Shown here: one piece after another, positions 22,908 through 35,630 of the stretch
How the letters are laid out: every line of letters starts with the position of its first letter
How positions within the stretch are numbered: the stretch's first letter is position 1
Origin: Rhodanobacteraceae bacterium
GTDB taxonomy: Bacteria > Pseudomonadota > Gammaproteobacteria > Xanthomonadales > Rhodanobacteraceae
Length of the DNA stretch: 64,000 nucleotides
NCBI GenBank assembly: GCA_030123585.1
Contig: CP126120.1
Span: forward strand, 744,001-808,000
Reading direction: 5' to 3'
Translations under genes and position numbers: made by a program
The notes under the pieces: generated by a model
What the model was told of the DNA's origin: nothing
The model's input: the letters and a program-made list of their open reading frames with translations, nothing else
Database searches by the model: none

Positions 22908-25628
22908 TCATTGCGTGATCGACGCCGGGTTCTGGTGCGCTTTCAGGGCGCTGCACAGCACGATCGACTCGTGCGTCTGCGCGAGGCCGCGTTTCACGCC
23001 GGGCACCTGACCCAACTTGGGCTTGAAGTAGTCCTCGACACGCGCGGCCTCGGCATCGGAGCAACCGCCGCCCGCCGCAATCATCGGCAGGTAGCCTCCC
23101 GAGAACACGCCGGTGCGCGCGACGATCTGCGGGTAGTGCGCGGTGAACCAGTTCCACAACCCATCGCGCTCGGCCCGGGTGTCGCGATTGTCTCGAAGCA
23201 GCATGCCCATCTCGCCGACTTTCACCTGCGGCGACAGCGCGAAATCGCGCACCACGTCGGCTTCGGCGCCTTGCGCGTGGGAGAGCGCTCCCAGCATCGC
23301 GTTGCGCTTGACCGGGTCGGTGGTCTTCGGGATCGCAGCGATCAACTCATCGACCGCCGGCTTGCCCTGGTCTTCCACCGCCACCGACAATGCGGTGCGC
23401 AGCAGGTCGGGGTTCGCGGCCATCAGGTCGGGCAGGCCATCCTTGCCGATTTTCAACGCGGCTTCACCCTGTTTCAGCAAGGCCGCACGCACCTGCGGAA
23501 CCTTGAAGTCGAGGCCGAGGGACATGGCAAGGTCGCTGCGCATCAGCACATCGTCGGCGGACTCGCCCGTGCGGCGCTGGTAACCCAACGCTTCCATTCG
23601 CGGCAAATAGGCCTTGGTCACGGCGTCGCGAACCGCCGTCTTCTGCGCATCGGTACGCGCTTCGTGGTCATAAATCCACTTGACGGTGTCGAGCGGCGCC
23701 AATGCGATCAGGCGCACCTTCGAAGGCGCCAGTTCGCGCATCGCCGCCAGCACTTCGCCGGCATCGAGATCGCCGCGCCGGAAGCCGGCGGTGATCGAAT
23801 CGGCATAGGCAAACTGCTCGCCGTCGTTGCGCTGGGCGATCACCTTGGCGAGCGCGGCGCGATCGGCTTTCGCCATCTCATAGCGGTAGTAGCCATCGCC
23901 GTCGGCGTTGGGCATGTACCACGCCGGGCACTGTCCGCCATCGACTTTCATGTCGGAGGATTTCTGGTCGAACATCTGGCACTGCACGCCGTTCGGGAAG
24001 CGCACGCACACCGGGATGCCCCACAGGCGGTTCGGATCGCCGGTGGAACCCAGCGGCAGGTAGCGGCTTTGCGTCAACTCCAGCACCGCACCGCCCTTGG
24101 CACCGCAATCCAGTTTGGTCGCGACCAGCGGCACGCCGTTCTGGTCGAGGAAGCTCTTGAACGCCTTCTTGAACGTCTCGCCCTTGCCGGCGGCAGTCGC
24201 GATCGCATCCACCAGGTCATCGGCATTCGCATTGCCGAACGCGTGCGCCTTGATGTACGCCTGCATGCCCTTCTGGAACACCTTGGGACCGACGAAGTTC
24301 TCGAACATGCCGATCACCGCCGCGCCTTTCTGATACGTGATGCCGTCGAACGCGGTCTCGATGTCGCCGTTGCCGGTGATCGGCTGGCGGATCATGCGCG
24401 CGCTGACCAGGCTGTCGTTCCGCATCGCGCCCTGCCCGCCCTCGATGCGGTCGAGGTGCGCATGCCAGTCGGGATGGATCTCGCCCTCGACCTTCTGCTG
24501 CATCCAGGTGGCGAAGGCCTCGTTGAGCCAGATGTCGTTCCACCAGTCCAGCGTGACGGTGTCGCCGGTCCATTGGTGCGCCAGTTCGTGCGCGATCACG
24601 TTGAAGCTGCTGCGCACCGCGCTGGGCGCGGAATCCTTGTCGAGCAGCAGCAGCCAGTCGCGGAAGGTCACGAGGCCCGCGTTCTCCATCGCGCCGGCCG
24701 AGAAATCGGGCAGCGCGGCGAGATCGAGCTTGCCGAACGGATAGCCGAAACCGTAATAGGCTTCCTCGTGCTCGATGATGCCCGGCACCATCGCCAGCGC
24801 GCGCTGCATCTTCGCGCCGTTGCCCCTGGTCGCGATGCCGCGCACCGGCACGGGCGTCGAACGCCACGGGTTCGGTGGAATCGTCGGGCCATTGACGATG
24901 TCCCACGGACCCACCGCCCACGCGTACAGATAGGTCGGCAACGGCCTGGTCTGCCGGAACGTGACCGTCTTCCAACCCTTGCCGGCCGGCTTGTCGCTGG
25001 CCTCCGCGGCGTTCGCGACCGCCTTGTCGGCATCGGGAATCGTCAGCGACAGATCCAACGGCGCCTTGAAGCCGGGTTCATCGAAGCACGGGAACGCGAG
25101 ACGCGCGCTGATCGGCTCCATCTGCGTCATCGCGTAGGCGTTGCCCGCAAACACGACCTTGTAATAGCCCTGCAGGGTCTTGTTGTATGGCGCAGTGAAA
25201 TCGAACTTCAGCCTGAGTTTCTGCGGCGGAAGCGTCGCCCCGAAATCCACGCGCGCCACGCCGGCCTGCTCGGCTTCCTGCGTGACCGCGCCGTCGTATT
25301 TTCCGGTGTGCACCTTGCCGTGCGCATCGGTGATGGTGACGGACGAGACCTTCAGGTCCTTGCCGTGCAGCCACACATGGTTCGAGGCCCGCTTCAGATC
25401 CACCGCGATCGTGACCGTGCCGCTGTAGCCGGGCTGGCCGGGATCGCTCTTGATCGAAAGCTCGTAGGACTGCGGCACCGCCCAATCGGGCAGCCGCGTC
25501 ATCGGCGGCGCCTCGGCGGACTTCGCCGCGACGGCCGCATGTTTTGCCGCCGCGTGCGGCGGTTTCGCCAGGGCCACGCCGGCAAACGCCAGCAGGCCCG
25601 CCATCACGAATACGGGGAACACGCGCAT
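22908..25628 (-). CDS. Secreted M1 family zinc aminopeptidase
   Basis: A 906-residue exported aminopeptidase that removes N-terminal residues from peptides. AAGGAG lies nine bases before the ATG. A signal peptide (MRVFPVFVMAGLLAFAGVAL, cleaved near LAK) is followed by an Ala/Lys-rich linker. M1 hallmarks are the exopeptidase motif GAMEN at 312-316, the zinc site HELAH at 347-351 and the third zinc ligand E370 in LNEAF. The C-terminal half is the helical ERAP1-like domain. It is more similar in organisation to periplasmic M1 peptidases of xanthomonads than to cytoplasmic PepN. It is divergent from the TonB-dependent receptor at 25840, so together they may serve peptide use. Confidence 0.9.
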   Translation of the reverse strand: MRVFPVFVMAGLLAFAGVALAKPPHAAAKHAAVAAKSAEAPPMTRLPDWAVPQSYELSIKSDPGQPGYSGTVTIAVDLKRASNHVWLHGKDLKVSSVTITDAHGKVHTGKYDGAVTQEAEQAGVARVDFGATLPPQKLRLKFDFTAPYNKTLQGYYKVVFAGNAYAMTQMEPISARLAFPCFDEPGFKAPLDLSLTIPDADKAVANAAEASDKPAGKGWKTVTFRQTRPLPTYLYAWAVGPWDIVNGPTIPPNPWRSTPVPVRGIATRGNGAKMQRALAMVPGIIEHEEAYYGFGYPFGKLDLAALPDFSAGAMENAGLVTFRDWLLLLDKDSAPSAVRSSFNVIAHELAHQWTGDTVTLDWWNDIWLNEAFATWMQQKVEGEIHPDWHAHLDRIEGGQGAMRNDSLVSARMIRQPITGNGDIETAFDGITYQKGAAVIGMFENFVGPKVFQKGMQAYIKAHAFGNANADDLVDAIATAAGKGETFKKAFKSFLDQNGVPLVATKLDCGAKGGAVLELTQSRYLPLGSTGDPNRLWGIPVCVRFPNGVQCQMFDQKSSDMKVDGGQCPAWYMPNADGDGYYRYEMAKADRAALAKVIAQRNDGEQFAYADSITAGFRRGDLDAGEVLAAMRELAPSKVRLIALAPLDTVKWIYDHEARTDAQKTAVRDAVTKAYLPRMEALGYQRRTGESADDVLMRSDLAMSLGLDFKVPQVRAALLKQGEAALKIGKDGLPDLMAANPDLLRTALSVAVEDQGKPAVDELIAAIPKTTDPVKRNAMLGALSHAQGAEADVVRDFALSPQVKVGEMGMLLRDNRDTRAERDGLWNWFTAHYPQIVARTGVFSGGYLPMIAAGGGCSDAEAARVEDYFKPKLGQVPGVKRGLAQTHESIVLCSALKAHQNPASITQ

Positions 25629-25752: not shown

Positions 25753-25798
25753 TGATACTGAAATATCATTGACAACCAAATGTGATCGTAGTATCACA
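25753..25798 (+). promoter_or_regulatory. Regulated promoter of the TonB-dependent receptor with two dyads
   Basis: TTGACA at 25769-25774 and TATCAC at 25792-25797 are separated by exactly 17 bases. A perfect dyad TGATA-N6-TATCA (25753-25768) abuts the -35 on its upstream side. A second perfect dyad TGTGAT-N6-ATCACA (25781-25798) covers the spacer and -10. The outer halves, TGATACT and AGTATCA, also form an inverted pair spanning the whole region. This looks like a repressor pair or a looping site. The regulator is not known, and RpiR at the end of the locus is one candidate. Confidence 0.65.
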
Positions 25799-25839: not shown

Positions 25840-28164
25840 ATGCACGGCACGCAGCGCGGATTCATGATTCGGGGTCTCTCGTTCGCCATTGCCGCAGCGC
25901 TCTGGTGCGCACCGCCGGTGCACGCGCAGGACGCCGCGCCACCGCCGGCATCCAAGCCGGCGGATCAGGCGAAGGCGACCCCGACTACGCTGGGCACCGT
26001 CATCGTCACCGCGAGCCGGCGCGACGAATCCCTGCAGAAGGTGGCGATGCCGGTGTCGGTGCTGACCTACCACGACATCGAGCGGCAACACCTGCAGGAT
26101 TTCGCGGACTACGCCGCCACGGTTCCGGGGCTCAACGCGGTCTCGGCGGGACCGGGACTCACCGAGGTGAGCATCCGCGGCATCGCTTCAGGCTCGTCAC
26201 AGCCCAGCGCGTCGGTCGGCATTTACGTGGACGAAACCCCGTACGGCTCCAGCAGCGTATTCGCCGAAGGTTCGCTGGTGACGCCGGACATCGATCCCGC
26301 CGATCTGGAACGCATCGAGGTGCTGCGCGGTCCGCAGGGCACACTGTACGGCGCCGGCGCGTTGGGCGGCGTGATCCGGTTCATCACCATCCCACCCGAT
26401 ACCCACGACTACGCCGGACGTCTGCAACTCGACGGCACCAGCGTCAGCGGCGGCGGCAACGGCTTCGGCGTGCACGGCATGGCCAACCTGCCGCTGGTCA
26501 CCGACAAACTGGCGGTCCGCGTCAACGTGTACGACCGCACCGATCCCGGCTTCATCGACGATGCCGGCCGCGGCAAGACCGACGTCAACGAAAGCCGGGT
26601 CAAGGGCGGCCGCGCATCGCTGCTGTGGACGCCGACGGCCACGACCTCGCTGCGCATCACCGCGATGGCGCAAAACCTCAGCAGCGACGGCAGCCCGTCC
26701 GAGGCGCTGGACCCGGACACGCTGCAGCCGGTTTACGGCAACCTGCAGCAACGCGTCGCCGCCGGCACGGGCAGCTTCGATGGACGCTATCGGCTCTACA
26801 ACGCGACCTTCAAGACCGATTTCGGCTGGTCGACGCTGACGGCGTCGAGCAGCTACAGCACCCTCGACAGCCTCAACAACCTGGATGCGACACCGCTGCT
26901 GTATCTCGGCCCCCAGGCCAATGGCCAGCCCTATGCCACCTTCGAGCAGGATCTGACGCACCAGACCAAGGCGACCCAGGAAATCCGCCTGCAATCCGCG
27001 GCGTCGCAAACGGTGGAGTGGCTGGGTGGCATCTTCTACACCCACGAAACCGCCAACCATCCGCAGCACATCTATCCCACCGATTACTTCACCGGGACGC
27101 CGCTTCCCTCGCCGTTCGGCATGTCCATCGGCGATGACGACCAACCGAGCACCTACGATGCCTGGGCCGCGTATGGAAGCCTCACCTGGCACATCACCGA
27201 CCGCTTCGACGTGGAAGCAGGCCTGCGCTACAGCCACGACAAGCAGCACTACACCGAAATCGGCAGCGGGCTGTTGTTCGGCACGCCGGCGCCGACGGTG
27301 CTGCTCGACAAGCATTCTTCCGACAGCAGCACCACGTTCTCGTTGACGCCGCGCTACAAGATCAACGACACGACCATGCTCTACGCGCGGGCGGCATCCG
27401 GTTTCCTGCCCGGCGGCCCCAACATCGTCACCGTCGCCATTCCGGGCGTGCCGAAAACCTTCAGCCCGACCAAGCTGACCGACTACGAAGTGGGCCTCAA
27501 GGCGACCTCGGCCGACCATCGCGTCATGGCCGATCTTTCCGCGTACTACATCGACTGGACCAAGATTCCGCTGGTCACGTTCATCAATCCGTTCACGTTC
27601 CTGGGCAACGGCGGACAGGCCAAGAGCAAGGGATTGGAAGCCACCGTCGCGGTGATTCCGGCACAGGGTCTGAAACTGTCGCTCAATGCCGCGTACAACG
27701 ACGCCACGCTGACCAAGGACGCTCCGTTTCCATCCAACGGCAAGCGCGGCGATCCGCTGCCCTACGCGCCGCAATTCACCCTCAGCCTGAATGGTGATTA
27801 CGACTTCGCGCTGACCGCAGGCTGGCATGGCTACGTCGGGGCGAGCTACCACTACATCGGCGAGCGCTCGACCGACTTCGCGTTCAACTATCCGATCGCG
27901 GGCGTGCTGCCTGCACTTCCGTCGAGCCCGACCATCCCCGGTTACGGCACCATCGACCTGCGCGCCGGGGTGAACCGCGACCAGTGGAGCATCGACGCCT
28001 GGGTCAAGAACGCGACCAACCAGCGCGGCATCGTGCTGGCGAGCACCTTCGCCAACTACGTGCCCATCGCCGGCCAGGTCAATCCCGTCACCGGGAAGAT
28101 GGAAGACAACGCCACCATCATCACGCCGCGGATGTTCGGCATATCGGTCAGCAGGAGTTTCTGA
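25840..28164 (+). CDS. TonB-dependent receptor
   Basis: A 774-residue outer-membrane active transporter. The ATG at 25840 is favoured over the GTG at 25834 because GGGAGGGG lies five bases before it. A signal peptide ends VHAQ. A TonB-box-like segment 'TLGTVIVTASRRDE' (about residues 49-62) precedes the plug ('DYAATVPGLNAVSAGPGL', 'LERIEVLRGPQGTLYGAGAL'). The barrel ends in the expected aromatic residue (SRSF). The ligand is not known. Position upstream of two hydrolases, a permease and a dipeptide epimerase suggests uptake of a peptide-like substrate. It is divergent from the M1 aminopeptidase. Confidence 0.88.
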   Translation: MHGTQRGFMIRGLSFAIAAALWCAPPVHAQDAAPPPASKPADQAKATPTTLGTVIVTASRRDESLQKVAMPVSVLTYHDIERQHLQDFADYAATVPGLNAVSAGPGLTEVSIRGIASGSSQPSASVGIYVDETPYGSSSVFAEGSLVTPDIDPADLERIEVLRGPQGTLYGAGALGGVIRFITIPPDTHDYAGRLQLDGTSVSGGGNGFGVHGMANLPLVTDKLAVRVNVYDRTDPGFIDDAGRGKTDVNESRVKGGRASLLWTPTATTSLRITAMAQNLSSDGSPSEALDPDTLQPVYGNLQQRVAAGTGSFDGRYRLYNATFKTDFGWSTLTASSSYSTLDSLNNLDATPLLYLGPQANGQPYATFEQDLTHQTKATQEIRLQSAASQTVEWLGGIFYTHETANHPQHIYPTDYFTGTPLPSPFGMSIGDDDQPSTYDAWAAYGSLTWHITDRFDVEAGLRYSHDKQHYTEIGSGLLFGTPAPTVLLDKHSSDSSTTFSLTPRYKINDTTMLYARAASGFLPGGPNIVTVAIPGVPKTFSPTKLTDYEVGLKATSADHRVMADLSAYYIDWTKIPLVTFINPFTFLGNGGQAKSKGLEATVAVIPAQGLKLSLNAAYNDATLTKDAPFPSNGKRGDPLPYAPQFTLSLNGDYDFALTAGWHGYVGASYHYIGERSTDFAFNYPIAGVLPALPSSPTIPGYGTIDLRAGVNRDQWSIDAWVKNATNQRGIVLASTFANYVPIAGQVNPVTGKMEDNATIITPRMFGISVSRSF

Positions 28165-28271
28165 GCGCAGCGTGTCCGCTGACGTGGACACGCCGCCTCC
28201 CTGCGCGCCACGAGGTCGCAGCGGGCGATGAACGGCACATTCCGAACCAACCCTTGCACAGGACCCGAGCC

Positions 28272-30299
28272 ATGTTGAAGCGTCTCGTTCCGCTGTTGCT
28301 GGCCGCAGCCGCCTGCGTGCCGTGTTTCGCCATCGCGCAGACATCGCTTGCACCGGCTGCATCCGCGCCGCCCGCCGCCGCGACCTCTTCCGCAAACCCT
28401 GCACTGCCCGTCACGGACACCGCGCCGGCCGCTACGGCGCCGACGCTCGACGCGCAGGATCTGCACGCGTTCCTCGACGGGCTGGTGCCGTACATGCTGA
28501 AGCGCAACGACATCGCTGGCGGCGTGGTCGCGGTGGTCAAGGACGGGCAGTTGATCTTCGCGCAAGGTTACGGCTACGCGGACGTCGCCAAGCGTACGCC
28601 GGTGGTCGCGGACAAGACGCTGTTCCGGATCGGCTCGGTGTCCAAGCTGTTCACCTGGACCGCGGTAATGCAGCTGGTCGCCGCGAACAAGCTCGATCTC
28701 GACACCGACATCAACAAGTATCTCGACTTCAAGATTCCGGAGAAATTCGGCAAGCCGATCACGCTGCGCGACCTGATGACGATGACGCCCGGCTTCGCCG
28801 AGGGGATTCGCGACCTGATCTTCGCCGCGCCGCGGCAACCGTTCCCGTTGCGCCAATACCTGATCGAAAGGATGCCGCCGCGGATCTTCCCGCCCGGCGA
28901 AGTCGTCGCGTATTCGAACTACGGCGCCACGCTGGCGGGCTACATCGTGCAGCGCGTGTCGGGTGAACCGTTCGACCAGTACGTCGAGGTGCACATCCTC
29001 AAGCCGCTGCAGATGGCCCACTCCACGTTCGTGCAGCCGCTGCCGTCCGCGCTGGCCGGCGATCTCGCGACCGGCTACATCACGGCCACCGGCAAGACCA
29101 CAGTTCCGTTCGAAATAGTCGAGCCCTATCCCGCAGGCTCGTTCACTTCCAGCGCGACCGACATGGCGAAGTTCATGATCGCGCAGTTGCAGGAAGGGCA
29201 GTTCGACGGCGCATCCATCCTGCCGCCGGCGACCGTGCAACTGATGCATTCGCCCCACTACAACGCCGCGCCGGACATGAACGGCTACGACTTCGGTTTC
29301 TATCGCGAAAACCGCAATGGCCTGCGCATCATCGGCCACGGCGGCGACACCCTCGCCTTCCATTCGGACCTGCACCTGCTGCTCGACAAGAACGTCGGCC
29401 TGTTCATGTCGTTCAACAGCGCCGGCAAGGCGCCGAACGGCACCGCCGAAGGCGTGCGCACGGAATTGTTCCGCGCCTTCCTCGATCGCTACTTCCCCTA
29501 CGCGGCTCCGGCGCAGCCGACAGTGGCATCCGCCAAGACAGACGCGGCACGCGTCGCCGGCTGGTACTGGGCCAGCCGCCGCGAAGAGAGCGCGCTACGG
29601 CTGATCTTCAGCCTGGGCCAGGCGAAGGTCGCGGCGCTGCCGAATGGCGAGATCACCGTCAGCATGCTGAAGGATCCTTCCGGCACCGTGAAGCACTGGC
29701 GCGAGATTGGCCCGCTGCTGTACCAGGAAGTCAACGGGCAATCGCGGCTACGCTTCGTCACCAATCCCGACGGTTCGATCAAGTGGTGGACCACCGATGA
29801 TTTCCCGCCCGTGGAACTGTTCCAGCCGGTGCACGGCCTGCAGCAACACGGCTGGTTCGTCCTGCTGACCAACATCGCGATCGCGGTGTTCGTGTTGACC
29901 GTGCTGGTCTGGATCGGCGGCGCGATTGCGCGGCGGCGTTTCGGACGCAGGCCGCTGATGGCAACCACGGATCGATTCGCACTGAACCTTGCATCGCGGA
30001 TCGGCGTGTGCCTGATGCTGGCGGTCGTGATCGGCTGGCTGCTGTTGCTGACGGCGTTCTCGAAACCGATGGCGCTGATGTACAGCGATTTCACGAGCTG
30101 GCTGGTCGTGCTGTACGTGCTTGGCGTGCTGGGCATCCTCGGCGGCATCGCGATCGTGCTGGAGACGATTTCGCGCATTGTGCGCGGCCCGGGCGGCTGG
30201 CTGGTGCGCATCTCCGAGTTCGTGTTGGGCCTGTGCGCGCTGTATGGCATCTGGGCGATCGTCGCGTACGGCCTGGCCAACTTCAATCTGCAGTATTGA
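28272..30299 (+). CDS. Beta-lactamase-family serine hydrolase with C-terminal membrane domain, copy 1
   Basis: A 675-residue protein of the class C beta-lactamase / D-alanyl-D-alanine peptidase fold. The ATG at 28272 heads a signal peptide (MLKRLVPLLLAAAACVPCFA). Catalytic motifs are complete: S122-V-S-K125 (nucleophile and general base), Y214-S-N216 and H356-G-G358. The periplasmic domain is followed by about four membrane segments in the last 160 residues, so the enzyme is anchored in the inner membrane. Family members hydrolyse D-amino-acid peptides, esters or beta-lactams, so the substrate cannot be fixed from sequence. It ends three bases before the permease gene. A second copy of the same architecture follows that permease. 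Confidence 0.88.
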   Translation: MLKRLVPLLLAAAACVPCFAIAQTSLAPAASAPPAAATSSANPALPVTDTAPAATAPTLDAQDLHAFLDGLVPYMLKRNDIAGGVVAVVKDGQLIFAQGYGYADVAKRTPVVADKTLFRIGSVSKLFTWTAVMQLVAANKLDLDTDINKYLDFKIPEKFGKPITLRDLMTMTPGFAEGIRDLIFAAPRQPFPLRQYLIERMPPRIFPPGEVVAYSNYGATLAGYIVQRVSGEPFDQYVEVHILKPLQMAHSTFVQPLPSALAGDLATGYITATGKTTVPFEIVEPYPAGSFTSSATDMAKFMIAQLQEGQFDGASILPPATVQLMHSPHYNAAPDMNGYDFGFYRENRNGLRIIGHGGDTLAFHSDLHLLLDKNVGLFMSFNSAGKAPNGTAEGVRTELFRAFLDRYFPYAAPAQPTVASAKTDAARVAGWYWASRREESALRLIFSLGQAKVAALPNGEITVSMLKDPSGTVKHWREIGPLLYQEVNGQSRLRFVTNPDGSIKWWTTDDFPPVELFQPVHGLQQHGWFVLLTNIAIAVFVLTVLVWIGGAIARRRFGRRPLMATTDRFALNLASRIGVCLMLAVVIGWLLLLTAFSKPMALMYSDFTSWLVVLYVLGVLGILGGIAIVLETISRIVRGPGGWLVRISEFVLGLCALYGIWAIVAYGLANFNLQY

Positions 30300-30302
30300 T
30301 CG

Positions 30303-31673
30303 ATGCACGGAACCGCGAATGAAAGCGCCAGCGCCGAACTCGACGCGGCCGGCTACACGCAGCAGCTCGACCGCCGTCTGAAACTGCGGCACCTGCTGGT
30401 GTACGGCATGGTGTTCATCGTGCCGATCGCGCCGGTCGCGGTGTACGGCTTCGTCGCGCATGCCAGTCAGGGCATGGTCCCGCTGGTGTACCTGGTCGGC
30501 ATGGTCGCGATGTTCTTCACCGCGATGAGCTACAAGCAGTTGAGCGCGGAGTTTCCGTTCGCGGGCTCGGTGTACGCGTATGTGCGGCGCGGCATGAATC
30601 CGTTTCTCGGCTTCATCGCGGGCTGGATGATCCTGGCGGATTACTTGCTGGTGCCGGCAGTGATCTACATCTTCGTGTCGAACTGGCTCGGCGGCCTCGT
30701 GCCCGGCATGCCGCACTGGGTGTGGATCGTGGCGTTGCTGTCGGTCAACACCGCGATCAACCTGCTGGGCGTGCGCCTGCAATCGCACGCGCACTTCGTG
30801 CTGCTGGCACTCGAGTTGCTCGCCCTGGCGATCTTCCTGGTACTCGCGATCCGTTTCGTGTTCGTCCTGGGCCAAGGCACCGGCGGTTTTTCATGGGCGC
30901 CGCTGTACCAACCCGGACACCTGAGCTGGAGCTTCATCGCGACGGCCACCACCATCGCGGCGCTGAGTTTCCTCGGCTTCGATGCGATCAGCACCTTGGC
31001 CGAAGAATCGCGTGAACCACGCCGCGACATCGGCACGGCGACGGTGCTGACGCTGCTGGTGCTCGGTGCGTTGTTCGTGCTGCAGACCTGGCTGGCCGCG
31101 CTGGCGCATCCCGACTACGCCAACCTCGACGACAACCTCGGGTTTTTCCAGATCGCACGCGAGGTCGGCGGCACCGCGCTGTTCGTGCTGTTCATCGCGG
31201 TGAAGGCCTTGGCGACCGGCGTGGCCAGCGCGCTGGCGTCGCAGTCGGCGATCTCGCGCATCCTGTTCGCGATGGGCCGCGATCGCGCCCTGCCCTTTGG
31301 CGGATTCCTCGCGAAGGTGGACGCACGCTTCAAGACACCCACCAACGCGATCCTGTTCGTCGCGGTGATTTCGCTGGTGCTTTCGCTCAGCGTACCCATC
31401 GTGGTGCTGTTGCACCTGGTCAATTTCGGCGCACTGACTTCGTTCCTGCTGCTCAACCTTTCGGTGCCCACCTATTTCTGGCTGCGTCGCGGGGAACGCA
31501 CGCGACCGCTGCGCCATCTGGTGCTGCCTGTCTGTGGCCTGATCGTGGTCGGTTTCATCTTCACCGGCTTCGATCACATGACGTTTCTGTTCGGCGGCGC
31601 ATGGCTGGTGGTCGGACTGCTGATGGCGATTTTCAGGCGGCAAAGTTCCCTGCCGCTCGGGGTTTCGCCATGA
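30303..31673 (+). CDS. APC family amino acid/polyamine permease
   Basis: A 456-residue inner-membrane permease with about twelve hydrophobic segments. It shows APC-superfamily features: an N-terminal cytoplasmic lead 'LDRRLKLRHLLVYGMVFIVP', 'FPFAGSVYAYVRRGMNPFLG' after helix 2, and 'AALSFLGFDAISTLAEE' in the sixth-helix region. Overall it resembles PuuP/amino acid importers. It lies between two serine hydrolases: three bases after the first, overlapping the second by four bases (ATGA). It probably imports amino acids or dipeptides released by those hydrolases. Confidence 0.85.
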   Translation: MHGTANESASAELDAAGYTQQLDRRLKLRHLLVYGMVFIVPIAPVAVYGFVAHASQGMVPLVYLVGMVAMFFTAMSYKQLSAEFPFAGSVYAYVRRGMNPFLGFIAGWMILADYLLVPAVIYIFVSNWLGGLVPGMPHWVWIVALLSVNTAINLLGVRLQSHAHFVLLALELLALAIFLVLAIRFVFVLGQGTGGFSWAPLYQPGHLSWSFIATATTIAALSFLGFDAISTLAEESREPRRDIGTATVLTLLVLGALFVLQTWLAALAHPDYANLDDNLGFFQIAREVGGTALFVLFIAVKALATGVASALASQSAISRILFAMGRDRALPFGGFLAKVDARFKTPTNAILFVAVISLVLSLSVPIVVLLHLVNFGALTSFLLLNLSVPTYFWLRRGERTRPLRHLVLPVCGLIVVGFIFTGFDHMTFLFGGAWLVVGLLMAIFRRQSSLPLGVSP

Positions 31674-33640
31674 AACGCATCGTGCAAGCCGCGTTCGTGC
31701 TCGCTTGTGCGTTCGGCTCGGCCATCGCGCAGATGCCACAGCCCACACCGCACTCACGTGCCGCGGAGAATCCACCGCCTGCTGTCTTGTCGCATGCAAT
31801 GACCGGGGAAGATCTCTCGACGTTCTTCGGTGGCATGCTGCCGTACATGCTGGCGCGCGGCGACATCGCCGGCGGCACCGTCGTTGTGGTGAAAGATGGC
31901 AAGGTGATGTTTGCCCACGGCTACGGTTACGCGGACCTCGAAACCCGCGCACCGGTATTCCCGGTCACCACGCTGTTCCGGATCGGTTCCGTCTCGAAGC
32001 TCTTCACCTGGACCGCGGTGATGCAACTGGTCGAGCAGCACAAGCTCGACCTCGATCGTGACATCAATGCCTATCTCGATTTCAGGATCCCGCCGCGCTT
32101 TGGCAAGCCGATCACGCTGCGCGACCTGATGACGCACACGCCCGGCTTCGAGGACACCGCGCGCGACCTGCTGCCCGCCACGCCTGCGAGCACCAACCTC
32201 GAACACTATCTCAAGGCGCACCTGCCCGCGCGCATCTTCCCACCCGGGACAATCGTGGCCTATTCCAACTACGGCGCAGGGCTGGCGGGTTACATCGTGC
32301 AGCGTGTGTCGGGCGAGTCGTTCGACGCATACATCCAGCGCCACATCCTCGAACCGCTGGACATGCACCACTCCACCTTCGCGCAACCCTTGCCGGCAAA
32401 CCTGGCGCCGCTGCTCGCGAAAGGTTATGTATCGGCTTCGGATGGCGATGCCAAACCCTTCGAGCTGGCGAATCCCGCGCCCGCGGGCGCGATGACGTCG
32501 TCCGCGCTGGACATGGCGAACTTCATGATCGCGCAGTTGCAGGACGGCCGCTTCGGCAGCACACGCATCTTGTCGCAACAAACCGCCCAGCTGATGCACA
32601 GCCCACAGCACACGTCTGCACCCGGCCTGAACGGGTTCGACCTCGGCTTCTACCAGGAAAACTGCAACGGCCAGCGCATCATCGGCCACGGCGGTGACAC
32701 CATCGTGTTCCACAGCGACCTGCACCTGTTGCTGGACGCGAACGTCGGCGTGTTCATGAGTTTCAACTCCGCGGGCAAGAATGGCGCGGTCAACGACGTG
32801 CGCAGCGCGATCTTCCGTGCGTTCCTCGATCGCTATTTTCCGTGGCAGGTTGCATCGGAACCGACCTGGAAAGACGCGAAAGTCGATGCCGCACGCGTCG
32901 CGGGTTCGTACGAATCCAGCCGCCGCATCCAGAGTGCGCTGCGATTCCTGTATCTGCTGGGACAGGCCAACGTGCAGGCGCAGCCCGACGGAACCATCAC
33001 GGTTTCAGCGATCAATGATGCCGCCGGCAACCCCGTCCACTGGCGTGAAATCGGGCCGCTGCGTTACCGCGAAGTCAACGGCCAGGCGCTGCTGGATTTC
33101 GTTGCGGACAGGCAGGGCCACATCATGTATTTGGCCACCAGCGAAAACCCGGCGTCGATCCTGCAGCGCATGCCGGCGCGCTTGAGCCCGACAACCTTCG
33201 GGCCGTTGCTTGGCATCACGCTCGTGATCCTGCTGGCCACGCTGCTGGCCTGGTTCGGCGGCTGGCGCATCCGCCGTCATTACGGTGGCACGCTGGCGCT
33301 TTCCCGCGCGCGACGCATCACGCGGATGTTGTCTCGACTCGGTGTGCTGACGTGCGTCGCCGTGGCATTCGGATGGTGCGCATTTGTCGCCGCGATTTCC
33401 GCCAACGAATTGTTGCTGGTACGCGGCGGCCTGACCCCGTGGATGTACCTGCTTTATGCGCTGGGCGTGTTCGCCTTGCTGGGCGTGTTCACGGTGGTCG
33501 CGAATACGGCGATCGCATGGTTCGCACCGCGTCGCAGCCGCTGGGTGCGTACCGGCGAATGCCTGCTGGCACTGGCCGCGATTTACCTCGCATGGTTCAT
33601 CGTGGCATTCGGACTGGTCAGCTTCGACGTGCGCTTCTGA
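31670..33640 (+). CDS. Beta-lactamase-family serine hydrolase with C-terminal membrane domain, copy 2
   Basis: A 656-residue paralogue of the hydrolase at 28272. The ATG overlaps the permease stop codon (ATGA), so translation is coupled. A signal peptide (MKRIVQAAFVLACAFGSAIA) is followed by the catalytic domain with S107-V-S-K110, Y198-S-N200 and H340-G-G342. The last 150 residues hold about four membrane helices. Large blocks match copy 1, for example 'LFRIGSVSKLFTWTAVMQLV' and 'IIGHGGDT'. A tandem duplication around the permease is likely. Two copies may differ in substrate preference. Confidence 0.88.
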   Translation: MKRIVQAAFVLACAFGSAIAQMPQPTPHSRAAENPPPAVLSHAMTGEDLSTFFGGMLPYMLARGDIAGGTVVVVKDGKVMFAHGYGYADLETRAPVFPVTTLFRIGSVSKLFTWTAVMQLVEQHKLDLDRDINAYLDFRIPPRFGKPITLRDLMTHTPGFEDTARDLLPATPASTNLEHYLKAHLPARIFPPGTIVAYSNYGAGLAGYIVQRVSGESFDAYIQRHILEPLDMHHSTFAQPLPANLAPLLAKGYVSASDGDAKPFELANPAPAGAMTSSALDMANFMIAQLQDGRFGSTRILSQQTAQLMHSPQHTSAPGLNGFDLGFYQENCNGQRIIGHGGDTIVFHSDLHLLLDANVGVFMSFNSAGKNGAVNDVRSAIFRAFLDRYFPWQVASEPTWKDAKVDAARVAGSYESSRRIQSALRFLYLLGQANVQAQPDGTITVSAINDAAGNPVHWREIGPLRYREVNGQALLDFVADRQGHIMYLATSENPASILQRMPARLSPTTFGPLLGITLVILLATLLAWFGGWRIRRHYGGTLALSRARRITRMLSRLGVLTCVAVAFGWCAFVAAISANELLLVRGGLTPWMYLLYALGVFALLGVFTVVANTAIAWFAPRRSRWVRTGECLLALAAIYLAWFIVAFGLVSFDVRF

Positions 33641-33677
33641 AGGCAATCCGCGTGCGTACCGACAACAAGGAGACGAC

Positions 33678-34694
33678 ATGAGCACCCCTCGTTCCATGAA
33701 GTTGCACGCCGCCATCGAAAGTCGGCCGATGAAGGCACCCCTCCATATCACCGGTTACACCTTCACCGGCTTCGATGCGCTGGTGGTGACACTGCACGAG
33801 GGCGGCTGGATCGGCCGCGGCGAGGCGCAGGGCGTGTACTACAAGCACGACAATCCTCCCGAAATGCTGGCACAGGTCGAAGCGTTGCGCGGCACCATCG
33901 AACGCGGCATCACGCGCGGCGAATTGCTGGATTGCCTGCCGCCCGGCGGCGCGCGCCACGCCATCGACGCCGCATTGTGGGATCTGGAAGCCAAGCGCAA
34001 GGGCATGCCGGTGTGGAAGTTGGCGGGTTCCGATCCGCCACGTCCGCTCACGACCACCTTCACGATCGGCGCCGACGAACCCGCCACGATGGCCGATCAT
34101 GCGCGCACGTTCGTCGATGCGCGCGCACTCAAGTTGAAACTGACCGACGATGATCTCAATGCCGAACGTGTGCGCGCGGTGCGCGCGGCGCGGCCGGACG
34201 TCTGGATGATGGTGGATGCCAACCAGGGCTTCACCCGCGATTCTCTGGCGCGGCTGGTGCCGACGCTGCAGCAATGCCGGGTTTCGTTGATCGAACAGCC
34301 GTTTCCCGTCGGCAAGGAGGGCTGGCTCGACGAACTCGATTGCCCGATCCACATCGCGGCCGACGAAAGTGTGCAGGACCACACCGATCTCGCGCGTGTC
34401 GCCGGCCGCGTCGACACCATCAACATCAAACTGGACAAGTGCGGCGGCCTCACCGAAGCGCTGGCGATGGCGCAACAGGCACACGCGATGGGGTTCGACC
34501 TGATGGTGGGCAACATGTCCGGCTCGTCGCTGGCGATGGCGCCGGCGTTCGTGCTCGGCCAGCAATGCGCGGTGGTCGACCTGGATGGCCCGTTGTACCT
34601 GCGCGAAGATTGTTCACCGGGCGCCCGTTATCAGGATGGCACGATCTGGTGTCCGGACGAACTTTGGGGCGGTCCGCTGCCGGCTGCGGCATGA
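33678..34694 (+). CDS. Dipeptide epimerase, enolase superfamily (L-Ala-D/L-Glu epimerase type)
   Basis: A 338-residue cytoplasmic enzyme that interconverts epimers of a dipeptide such as L-Ala-D-Glu and L-Ala-L-Glu. AAGGAG lies five bases before the ATG at 33678. The muconate-lactonising subgroup signature is complete: catalytic K152-L-K154, metal ligands D180 (VDAN), E206 (EQP) and D229 (ADES), and the NIKLDKCGG segment at 249-257 with the second catalytic lysine. Lacking the usual N-terminal length of sugar-acid dehydratases, it fits dipeptide epimerases better. Exact dipeptide specificity is not predictable by eye. It sits downstream of the hydrolase-permease-hydrolase block. Confidence 0.85.
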   Translation: MSTPRSMKLHAAIESRPMKAPLHITGYTFTGFDALVVTLHEGGWIGRGEAQGVYYKHDNPPEMLAQVEALRGTIERGITRGELLDCLPPGGARHAIDAALWDLEAKRKGMPVWKLAGSDPPRPLTTTFTIGADEPATMADHARTFVDARALKLKLTDDDLNAERVRAVRAARPDVWMMVDANQGFTRDSLARLVPTLQQCRVSLIEQPFPVGKEGWLDELDCPIHIAADESVQDHTDLARVAGRVDTINIKLDKCGGLTEALAMAQQAHAMGFDLMVGNMSGSSLAMAPAFVLGQQCAVVDLDGPLYLREDCSPGARYQDGTIWCPDELWGGPLPAAA

Positions 34695-34724
34695 CACCCG
34701 GCGTTGCCCGATAATTCCACCCCG

Positions 34725-35630
34725 ATGGCCCAGGAACTGCAAAAAAAGCTCAAGAGCCGCTGGGCGACCTTCACCCCGTCGGAACAGCGGATCGCCGGTT
34801 ACCTGCTGCAGAACCTCAGCGGCCTGCCCTTCGAAACCGCAGCGTCGCTGGGTCAGCGCGTGGGCGTCAGCGCGATGACCGTCGGCCGCTTCCTGCGCAA
34901 GCTCGGCTACGCGGGTGTGGCCGAAATGAAGGAAGAACTGCGCGGCGACACGGCTTGGCTGAAGCTCTACCACAGCCTGGCGCCCGCAGAGGGACCGGGC
35001 GCCCGCGACGAAAGCCTCGAAGCCGAAATCCGCGCGGTGTCTGCGGTCCACGCGCTAACGCGCGGCGAGGAATGGCAAGCCATCGCGCGCCTGCTGGCCT
35101 CGGCCGACCGGGTTTCCGTCGCCAGTTTCCAACTCGGCCGTTTCCTGGGCCTGATGTTCGCGACGCTGCTGCAGCAGATCCGCCCGCACGTCGCATTTGC
35201 ATCCGGCGTGGACGGCGCCTATACCGACGTGCTGGTCGACTCGACCGAAAAGAGCTGCGTGGTGCTGATCGACGAGCGCCGCTACTCGCGGCACTTCCGG
35301 ATTCTCGCCGAAGAAGTGGCGGCCCGCGGCATCCCGCTCGTGATCCTCACCGATTCCGAATGTTATTGGGCGCGCCCGTTGACGCCACACGTGCTGATGC
35401 TGCCCATCCAGCCGGAACGTGCGTGGCACAGCTTCACCGCGTTCAGCACGCTGTTCAACCTGCTGCTGGGCACGGTGATCCGCGTGCGCGGCAGCGACGC
35501 GGTGTACCAGCGCGTCGAGCAGATTACCGCGATGCGCCAGCAATTCATCGGATTCAGCGGATCCTCGCCATCACCGGAGCCCGCCGGCGCCGCGGCGGCG
35601 CGGCGTCCTCGCAAGCGCCGCAACGGCTGA
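34725..35630 (+). CDS. MurR/RpiR family transcriptional regulator
   Basis: A 301-residue regulator. The ATG at 34725 is chosen over a TTG at 34704, though neither has a clear ribosome binding site. Residues 15-75 form the RpiR helix-turn-helix ('FTPSEQRIAGYLLQNLSGLP', 'VGVSAMTVGRFLRKLGYAG'). Residues about 115-255 are a SIS-like sugar-phosphate-binding domain ('RVSVASFQLGRFLGLMFATL', 'VLIDERRYSRHFRILAEEVA'). Family members such as MurR sense amino-sugar phosphates. It lies 30 bases after the epimerase and is the likely regulator of the locus. Its stop codon directly touches the convergent ahpD stop. Confidence 0.85.
   Translation: MAQELQKKLKSRWATFTPSEQRIAGYLLQNLSGLPFETAASLGQRVGVSAMTVGRFLRKLGYAGVAEMKEELRGDTAWLKLYHSLAPAEGPGARDESLEAEIRAVSAVHALTRGEEWQAIARLLASADRVSVASFQLGRFLGLMFATLLQQIRPHVAFASGVDGAYTDVLVDSTEKSCVVLIDERRYSRHFRILAEEVAARGIPLVILTDSECYWARPLTPHVLMLPIQPERAWHSFTAFSTLFNLLLGTVIRVRGSDAVYQRVEQITAMRQQFIGFSGSSPSPEPAGAAAARRPRKRRNG

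Follow-up and report, generated by a model that had tools for sequence, protein, structure and literature searches.

A putative operon for the use of D-amino-acid-containing peptides in a Rhodanobacteraceae bacterium

A 64,000-nucleotide stretch of a Rhodanobacteraceae genome (hereafter the window; C1:744001-808000 of the closed 3.29-Mb genome) carries, between positions 25840 and 35630, a single operon of six genes that encode, in order, a TonB-dependent receptor (TBDR), a serine hydrolase of family S12, an APC-superfamily permease, a second S12 hydrolase, a DgcA-like dipeptide epimerase and an RpiR-family regulator. The utilisation of D-residue peptides is the probable function of this gene set. 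On balance, we favour the reading that the operon is dedicated to the use of D-amino-acid-containing peptides and that its substrate is something other than the L-Ala-D-Glu of murein. A literature search found no published description of this operon.

The original prediction had named these six genes on one strand with gaps of −4 to 107 bases, and it was accurate in this respect. All six were found on the plus strand at the coordinates it gave, the intergenic gaps are, in order along the operon, 107, 3, −4, 37 and 9 bases, and all six proteins score above the Pfam cut-off for their assigned families. The receptor, P0001 (25840..28164), matches PF07715 and PF00593 (plug, 79.8 bits; barrel, 136 bits), and no SusD-like gene that could be its partner lies between 25840 and 35630. 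The two S12 hydrolases, P0002 (28272..30299) and P0004 (31670..33640), match PF00144 with 205 and 217 bits, respectively, and the permease between them, P0003 (30303..31673), matches PF00324/PF13520 with about 124 bits. The epimerase, P0005 (33678..34694), belongs to the enolase superfamily (MR_MLE N- and C-terminal domains, 33 and 108 bits), and the regulator, P0006 (34704..35630), has a helix-turn-helix (HTH) domain (PF01418, HTH_6; 39.3 bits) and a divergent SIS domain (PF01380; 33.6 bits). The starts of the last two genes are ambiguous, with 33696 as the alternative for the epimerase, and 34704 (TTG) or 34725 (ATG) as candidates for the regulator.

P0002 and P0004 are 54% identical, and in each a signal peptide is followed by a periplasmic S12 domain and, at the C-terminus, four membrane helices. 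The helices of P0002 were read from the sequence, and those of P0004 (507-538, 546-578, 589-617 and 624-646) from an AlphaFold model, which has the S12 fold. Both proteins carry the motifs SVSK, YSN and HGG, and SxxK/YSN/HxG is kept in all aligned S12 proteins with C-terminal membrane helices (S12tm). The top matches in sequence and in fold (Foldseek) include Pab87 (2qmi), the DL-peptidase Lip3 (9sn1) and alkaline D-peptidase (4y7p), for which the fold alignment gives about 20-23% identity; the four membrane helices are a feature of P0002 and P0004. Alkaline D-peptidase, whose SxxK/YxN/HxG active site is that of P0002 and P0004, releases dipeptides whose last residue is always D-Phe (PMC4570186), and Pab87 degrades D-amino-acid peptides specifically (PMC2651629). 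Lip3, of the same overall length as P0002 and P0004, is reported to be a lipopeptide-induced DL-peptidase that cleaves DL-amide bonds in syringafactin (PMC13188892). By analogy with these nearest solved enzymes, P0002 and P0004 are putative D-specific periplasmic peptidases. Like ClbP-type prodrug peptidases, they place a membrane domain C-terminal to a periplasmic S12 domain and would have a D-residue at the cleavage site, and the mode of membrane anchoring is similar (PMC9889268), but ClbP has three membrane helices, is encoded in biosynthesis clusters and is not among the best matches here. In Pyrococcus abyssi, the Pab87 gene lies by genes for a D-aminoacylase and a dipeptide transporter; unlike in the window operon, no epimerase, receptor or RpiR regulator is reported in that neighbourhood (PMC2651629).

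The best NCBIfam model for P0005 is DgcA (NF042940), with 366.0 bits, below the cut-off of 400, and its score with the L-Ala-D/L-Glu epimerase (YcjG) model NF011708 is 226.4 bits, below the cut-off of 343. The catalytic set is retained, namely KxK (K153, K155), the metal ligands D181, E207 and D230, the second lysine K255, and D302-L-D304, and the KxK, D-E-D, Lys and DLDGP motifs are invariant in the aligned epimerases. An AlphaFold model of P0005 (predicted local distance difference test, pLDDT, 92.8) has as its Foldseek neighbours the dipeptide epimerases 4gfi, 1jpd, 3jva and 3rit; the template modelling (TM) score with 1jpd, E. coli YcjG, is 0.86-0.92. By fold and catalytic residues, then, P0005 appears to be a dipeptide epimerase. 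With E. coli YcjG and B. subtilis YkfB, which function in murein peptide use, it has in common the fold, the catalytic lysines, the metal ligands and the DLDGP-type motif. It differs from them in its neighbours, its sub-cut-off model score, and two features of the sequence: the residue aligned to Arg24 of YcjG, which in the YcjG/YkfB structures would hold the Glu side chain, is Gly27 (Gly, Ser or Asn across the clade), and the loop PYPRYGE is rewired to GVYYxxD/E throughout the clade. In a tree of 67 epimerases, the non-Arg proteins, with the exception of one distant row, form a single supported clade of 50 (Shimodaira-Hasegawa-like approximate likelihood ratio test, 95), and the replacement of Arg requires 2 changes in all. 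We suggest that P0005 acts on dipeptides whose D residue is non-acidic, such as those derived from soil nonribosomal peptides. The enzymes of E. faecalis (3jva), M. capsulatus (3rit) and T. maritima (3deq) share its fold at only about 25-31% identity and belong to a family shown to accept cationic and hydrophobic dipeptides; we know of no epimerase of this type in an operon with a TBDR, an S12 enzyme and a POT symporter. A pair of genomes from a single genus have an epimerase gene that seems to be divided into two overlapping parts, possibly by a frameshift (G077:C16:18678-19724 and G102:C1:887916-888977).

The neighbourhoods of 74 epimerase relatives were gene-called by a custom script and then clustered; the counts that follow are of loci, many of which are related to one another, and not of independent events. 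The identical six-gene order is present in five loci of the genus (the window, L038, L048, L049 and L050), and 19 loci from other genera of the family, with differing outer flanks, share the order TBDR, S12tm, epimerase, POT, RpiR. Because of this recurrence, the gene set cannot be attributed to chance, and the original prediction withstands the refutation test set for it, namely a neighbour order that is not conserved in related genomes. Cluster 4 of the POT-type loci is a POT peptide symporter (TIGR00924, oligopeptide:H+ symporter; 271 bits, with the cut-off at 130). In a Caulobacteraceae metagenome-assembled genome (L043) POT, RpiR, TBDR, epimerase and S12tm occur together, rearranged. At the protein level, the relatives of the window include the named Rhodanobacteraceae Fulvimonas soli and Dyella nitratireducens. 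Within six genes of the non-Arg epimerases, an S12tm gene is found in 51 of 58 loci, a TBDR gene in 50, POT in 35 and DgcN in 22, whereas all 14 Arg-type epimerases have DgcN at this distance and none has S12tm, TBDR or POT (0/14 each).

In sister families, the epimerase clade occurs in an operon divergent from an HTH-cupin regulator, with the order S12tm, epimerase, POT, (amidohydrolase), TBDR, DgcN, S12 (L118-L127). In phylogenetic trees, the window receptor and first S12 protein group with HTH-cupin-controlled TBDR-S12tm modules (L055, L056; support 99-100; 100 for P0001 in the receptor tree), and the second S12 protein, the epimerase and the regulator group with the RpiR-type operons. Loci L055-L057 have both modules side by side, the second with DgcN and an M19 dipeptidase. 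These groupings suggest that the HTH-cupin and RpiR module types were fused in the window operon, with the APC permease taking the place of POT.

Among the carriers of the RpiR-type operon, nine near-complete genomes spread over six genera lack DgcN (PF07755), namely G007, G019, G035, G055, G063, G093, G107, G126 and G136; G035 and G107 have sub-cut-off matches only. Since the operon is kept without DgcN, the epimerase in these nine genomes cannot depend on DgcN, and the operon need not depend on N-acetylated D-Glu. The genome of the window encodes one DgcN above cut-off (521 bits; C1:346 kb), and none within the operon; it adjoins a canonical DgcA (431.9 bits, cut-off 400; C1:345-347 kb). P0005 is 39% identical to this DgcA and resembles the DgcN-DgcA D-glutamate pathway (NF041892, NF042940) in the proximity of part of its clade to DgcN, but it falls below the DgcA cut-off, has lost the Arg motif, and lies in a TBDR/S12/permease/RpiR context instead of the LysR/GGT context of the canonical enzyme. 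Assignment of P0005 as a plain DgcA was rejected on the basis of its sub-cut-off score and the DgcN-free genomes that carry the operon. The canonical pair is part of a locus at C1:338-350 kb (L003 6154-19501) that encodes LysR, a TonB receptor, an S58 aminopeptidase, DgcN, DgcA, gamma-glutamyltransferase (GGT), diaminopimelate decarboxylase, two S12 enzymes and a VanX-like dipeptidase. It lies outside the window and is conserved in two further loci of this genus, L080 and L081. Judged by gene content, this locus, with an almost full kit for muropeptide stems and D-Glu, would be a better muropeptide/D-Glu candidate than the window operon.

A generic scan gave no terminator and, the −10 being weak, no promoter; the promoter was found solely through comparison of upstream regions. 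A promoter-like element on the plus strand (25769..25797) consists of a −35 sequence TTGACA (25769-25774), which is near-invariant in 23 aligned upstream regions, a 17-bp spacer and a −10-like TATCAC (25792-25797). Two operator-like palindromes, to which no strand is assigned, bracket it. O1, TGATA-N6-TATCA (TGATACTGAAATATCA; 25753..25768), is conserved (at least 12 of 16 positions) upstream of TBDR in 23 of 27 RpiR-type loci, with a single weak case among the HTH-cupin loci (L055, 12/16), and the 3.29-Mb genome has one match to it with up to three mismatches. O2, TGTGAT-N6-ATCACA (25781..25798), overlaps the −10 and corresponds to TGNTA...TANCA at equal distance in the aligned upstream regions. 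The distribution of O1 and O2 implies that a dedicated local regulator, most simply P0006, would act at these candidate sites. The original prediction had likened this regulator to MurR as a sensor of amino-sugar phosphates, and here it fared poorly. Although both domains of P0006 are above cut-off, it scores 20.7 bits with the MurR model (cut-off 408) and 158 bits with SapR (NF046014; cut-off 500), and the RpiR-type orthologues have VASFQ-like and LID.RRY stretches at the place of the usual Ser/Thr motif of the SIS domain, presumably the canonical sugar-phosphate motif. As judged from these comparisons, the analogy with MurR is weak.

One scheme that would accommodate these observations begins with capture of the peptide at the outer membrane by the TonB receptor, as its family suggests. 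The two anchored S12 peptidases, facing the periplasm, would then cut C-terminal to a D residue and leave short peptides that end in that residue; this step is suggested by the motifs, by the fold neighbours and by what is published on where alkaline D-peptidase cleaves. The fragments would be imported by the POT symporter in most relatives and by the APC permease or a general POT in this organism. The epimerase would invert the C-terminal D residue of a dipeptide to L, so that ordinary peptidases could finish the degradation, and RpiR would control the single promoter by binding to the two bracketing palindromes. The S12 and epimerase activities may be joined mechanistically, because the D-ended products of cleavage would suit a dipeptide epimerase, which is able to invert such a residue. 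The route from capture through cleavage and import to epimerisation that was originally proposed for D-amino-acid peptides is therefore upheld as a prediction, given the conserved gene order, the nearest solved relatives of the S12 enzymes (D-peptidases) and of the epimerase (dipeptide epimerases), and the relatives that have POT in the operon. More tentatively, one could envision a previously undescribed route in which anchored DL-peptidases leave D-ended products, for example of nonribosomal lipopeptides, which a non-Glu epimerase inverts as dipeptides without N-acetylation, under an RpiR regulator that does not sense sugar phosphate.

An alternative that had been part of the original prediction is murein use, in which L-Ala-D-Glu from the cell wall would be taken up and then converted by an L-Ala-D/L-Glu epimerase, with RpiR as a sensor of amino-sugar phosphates. 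The structural closeness of P0005 to YcjG and its DLDGP motif would fit such a role, and Pab87-type S12 enzymes are able to process muropeptides as well (PMC2651629). However, the altered Arg24 position and loop, the NF011708 score and the atypical SIS motif all argue against it, as does an operon that has no muramidase, amidase or LD-carboxypeptidase, while the separate LysR-linked locus has GGT, the decarboxylase, the VanX-like dipeptidase, DgcN and DgcA. We rejected murein as the substrate because of the Arg24 loss, the model scores and the existence of that better locus, and consider this alternative improbable.

A different scenario is that the S12 enzymes release free D-amino acids, which enter through the APC permease, are N-acetylated by the DgcN encoded at C1:346 kb, and are racemised by P0005 acting as a broad-specificity relative of DgcA. 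This has in its favour that DgcA is the best model for P0005, that DgcN lies near part of the clade (e.g. L118-L127), that the genome has a DgcN above cut-off, and that an APC permease suits free amino acids. We nevertheless think it rather unlikely, in view of the nine genomes that keep the operon without DgcN, the linked permease of those genomes, which is a POT peptide transporter, and the fact that the DgcN of this genome adjoins its own canonical DgcA outside the operon. It is also conceivable that the operon serves detoxification and not nutrition, with the S12 enzymes inactivating D-residue antibiotics or lipopeptides in the periplasm and the permease and epimerase salvaging the pieces. 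The reported induction by lipopeptide of Lip3, a close S12 neighbour (PMC13188892), and the ClbP-like anchoring (PMC9889268) are consistent with this, but a TonB receptor that imports the compound would be odd for pure defence, and conservation extends beyond the peptidase to the epimerase and peptide symporter; we regard detoxification as very improbable.

Several points weigh against the dedicated use of D-residue peptides that we favour. The proximity of DgcN to 22 of the 58 non-Arg epimerases suits the N-acyl-D-amino-acid route, and the fold neighbours of the S12 enzymes also include esterases and beta-lactamases. The genus has APC instead of POT, and P0003, which is below all NCBIfam cut-offs, has as its nearest solved structures 5oqt and 6f34 (both 'Amino acid transporter'). 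If P0003 imports free amino acids, the epimerase is left without an obvious substrate, and generic POTs would have to import the dipeptide. No POT gene is present in the window operon, and the POTs found elsewhere in the genus (in this genome at C1:1.971-1.974 Mb) are only generic, at about 40% identity, so that simple relocation of the operon POT within the genome was rejected. Import by the APC permease is the weakest step of the scheme.

The recycling of non-murein D-residue peptides by bacteria is poorly mapped, and the question would become directly testable in an operon this compact, which has a single promoter, a pair of candidate operators and three enzymes that could be purified. The P0005 clade, whose members currently risk annotation as 'DgcA' or 'L-Ala-D/L-Glu epimerase', would become a separate specificity group, and such operons are a possible source of D-specific peptidases and epimerases for the analysis of nonribosomal peptides.

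Some observations concern the surroundings of these genes. Members of the epimerase clade from sister families, and from one genus within the family, have DgcN and an HTH-cupin regulator as neighbours and frequently also M19 dipeptidases and an amidohydrolase (L075 2624-14132, L078, L118-L127, L133 and L134), which suggests a larger undescribed locus for D-amino-acid utilisation. A conserved protein of about 375 residues (cluster c28; L075 11434-12561 and relatives) has no Pfam or NCBIfam match. In the window, a divergent gene at 22908-25628, a putative M1-type aminopeptidase by its appearance, adjoins the operon and keeps this position in a number of genomes from the genus (cluster 19).

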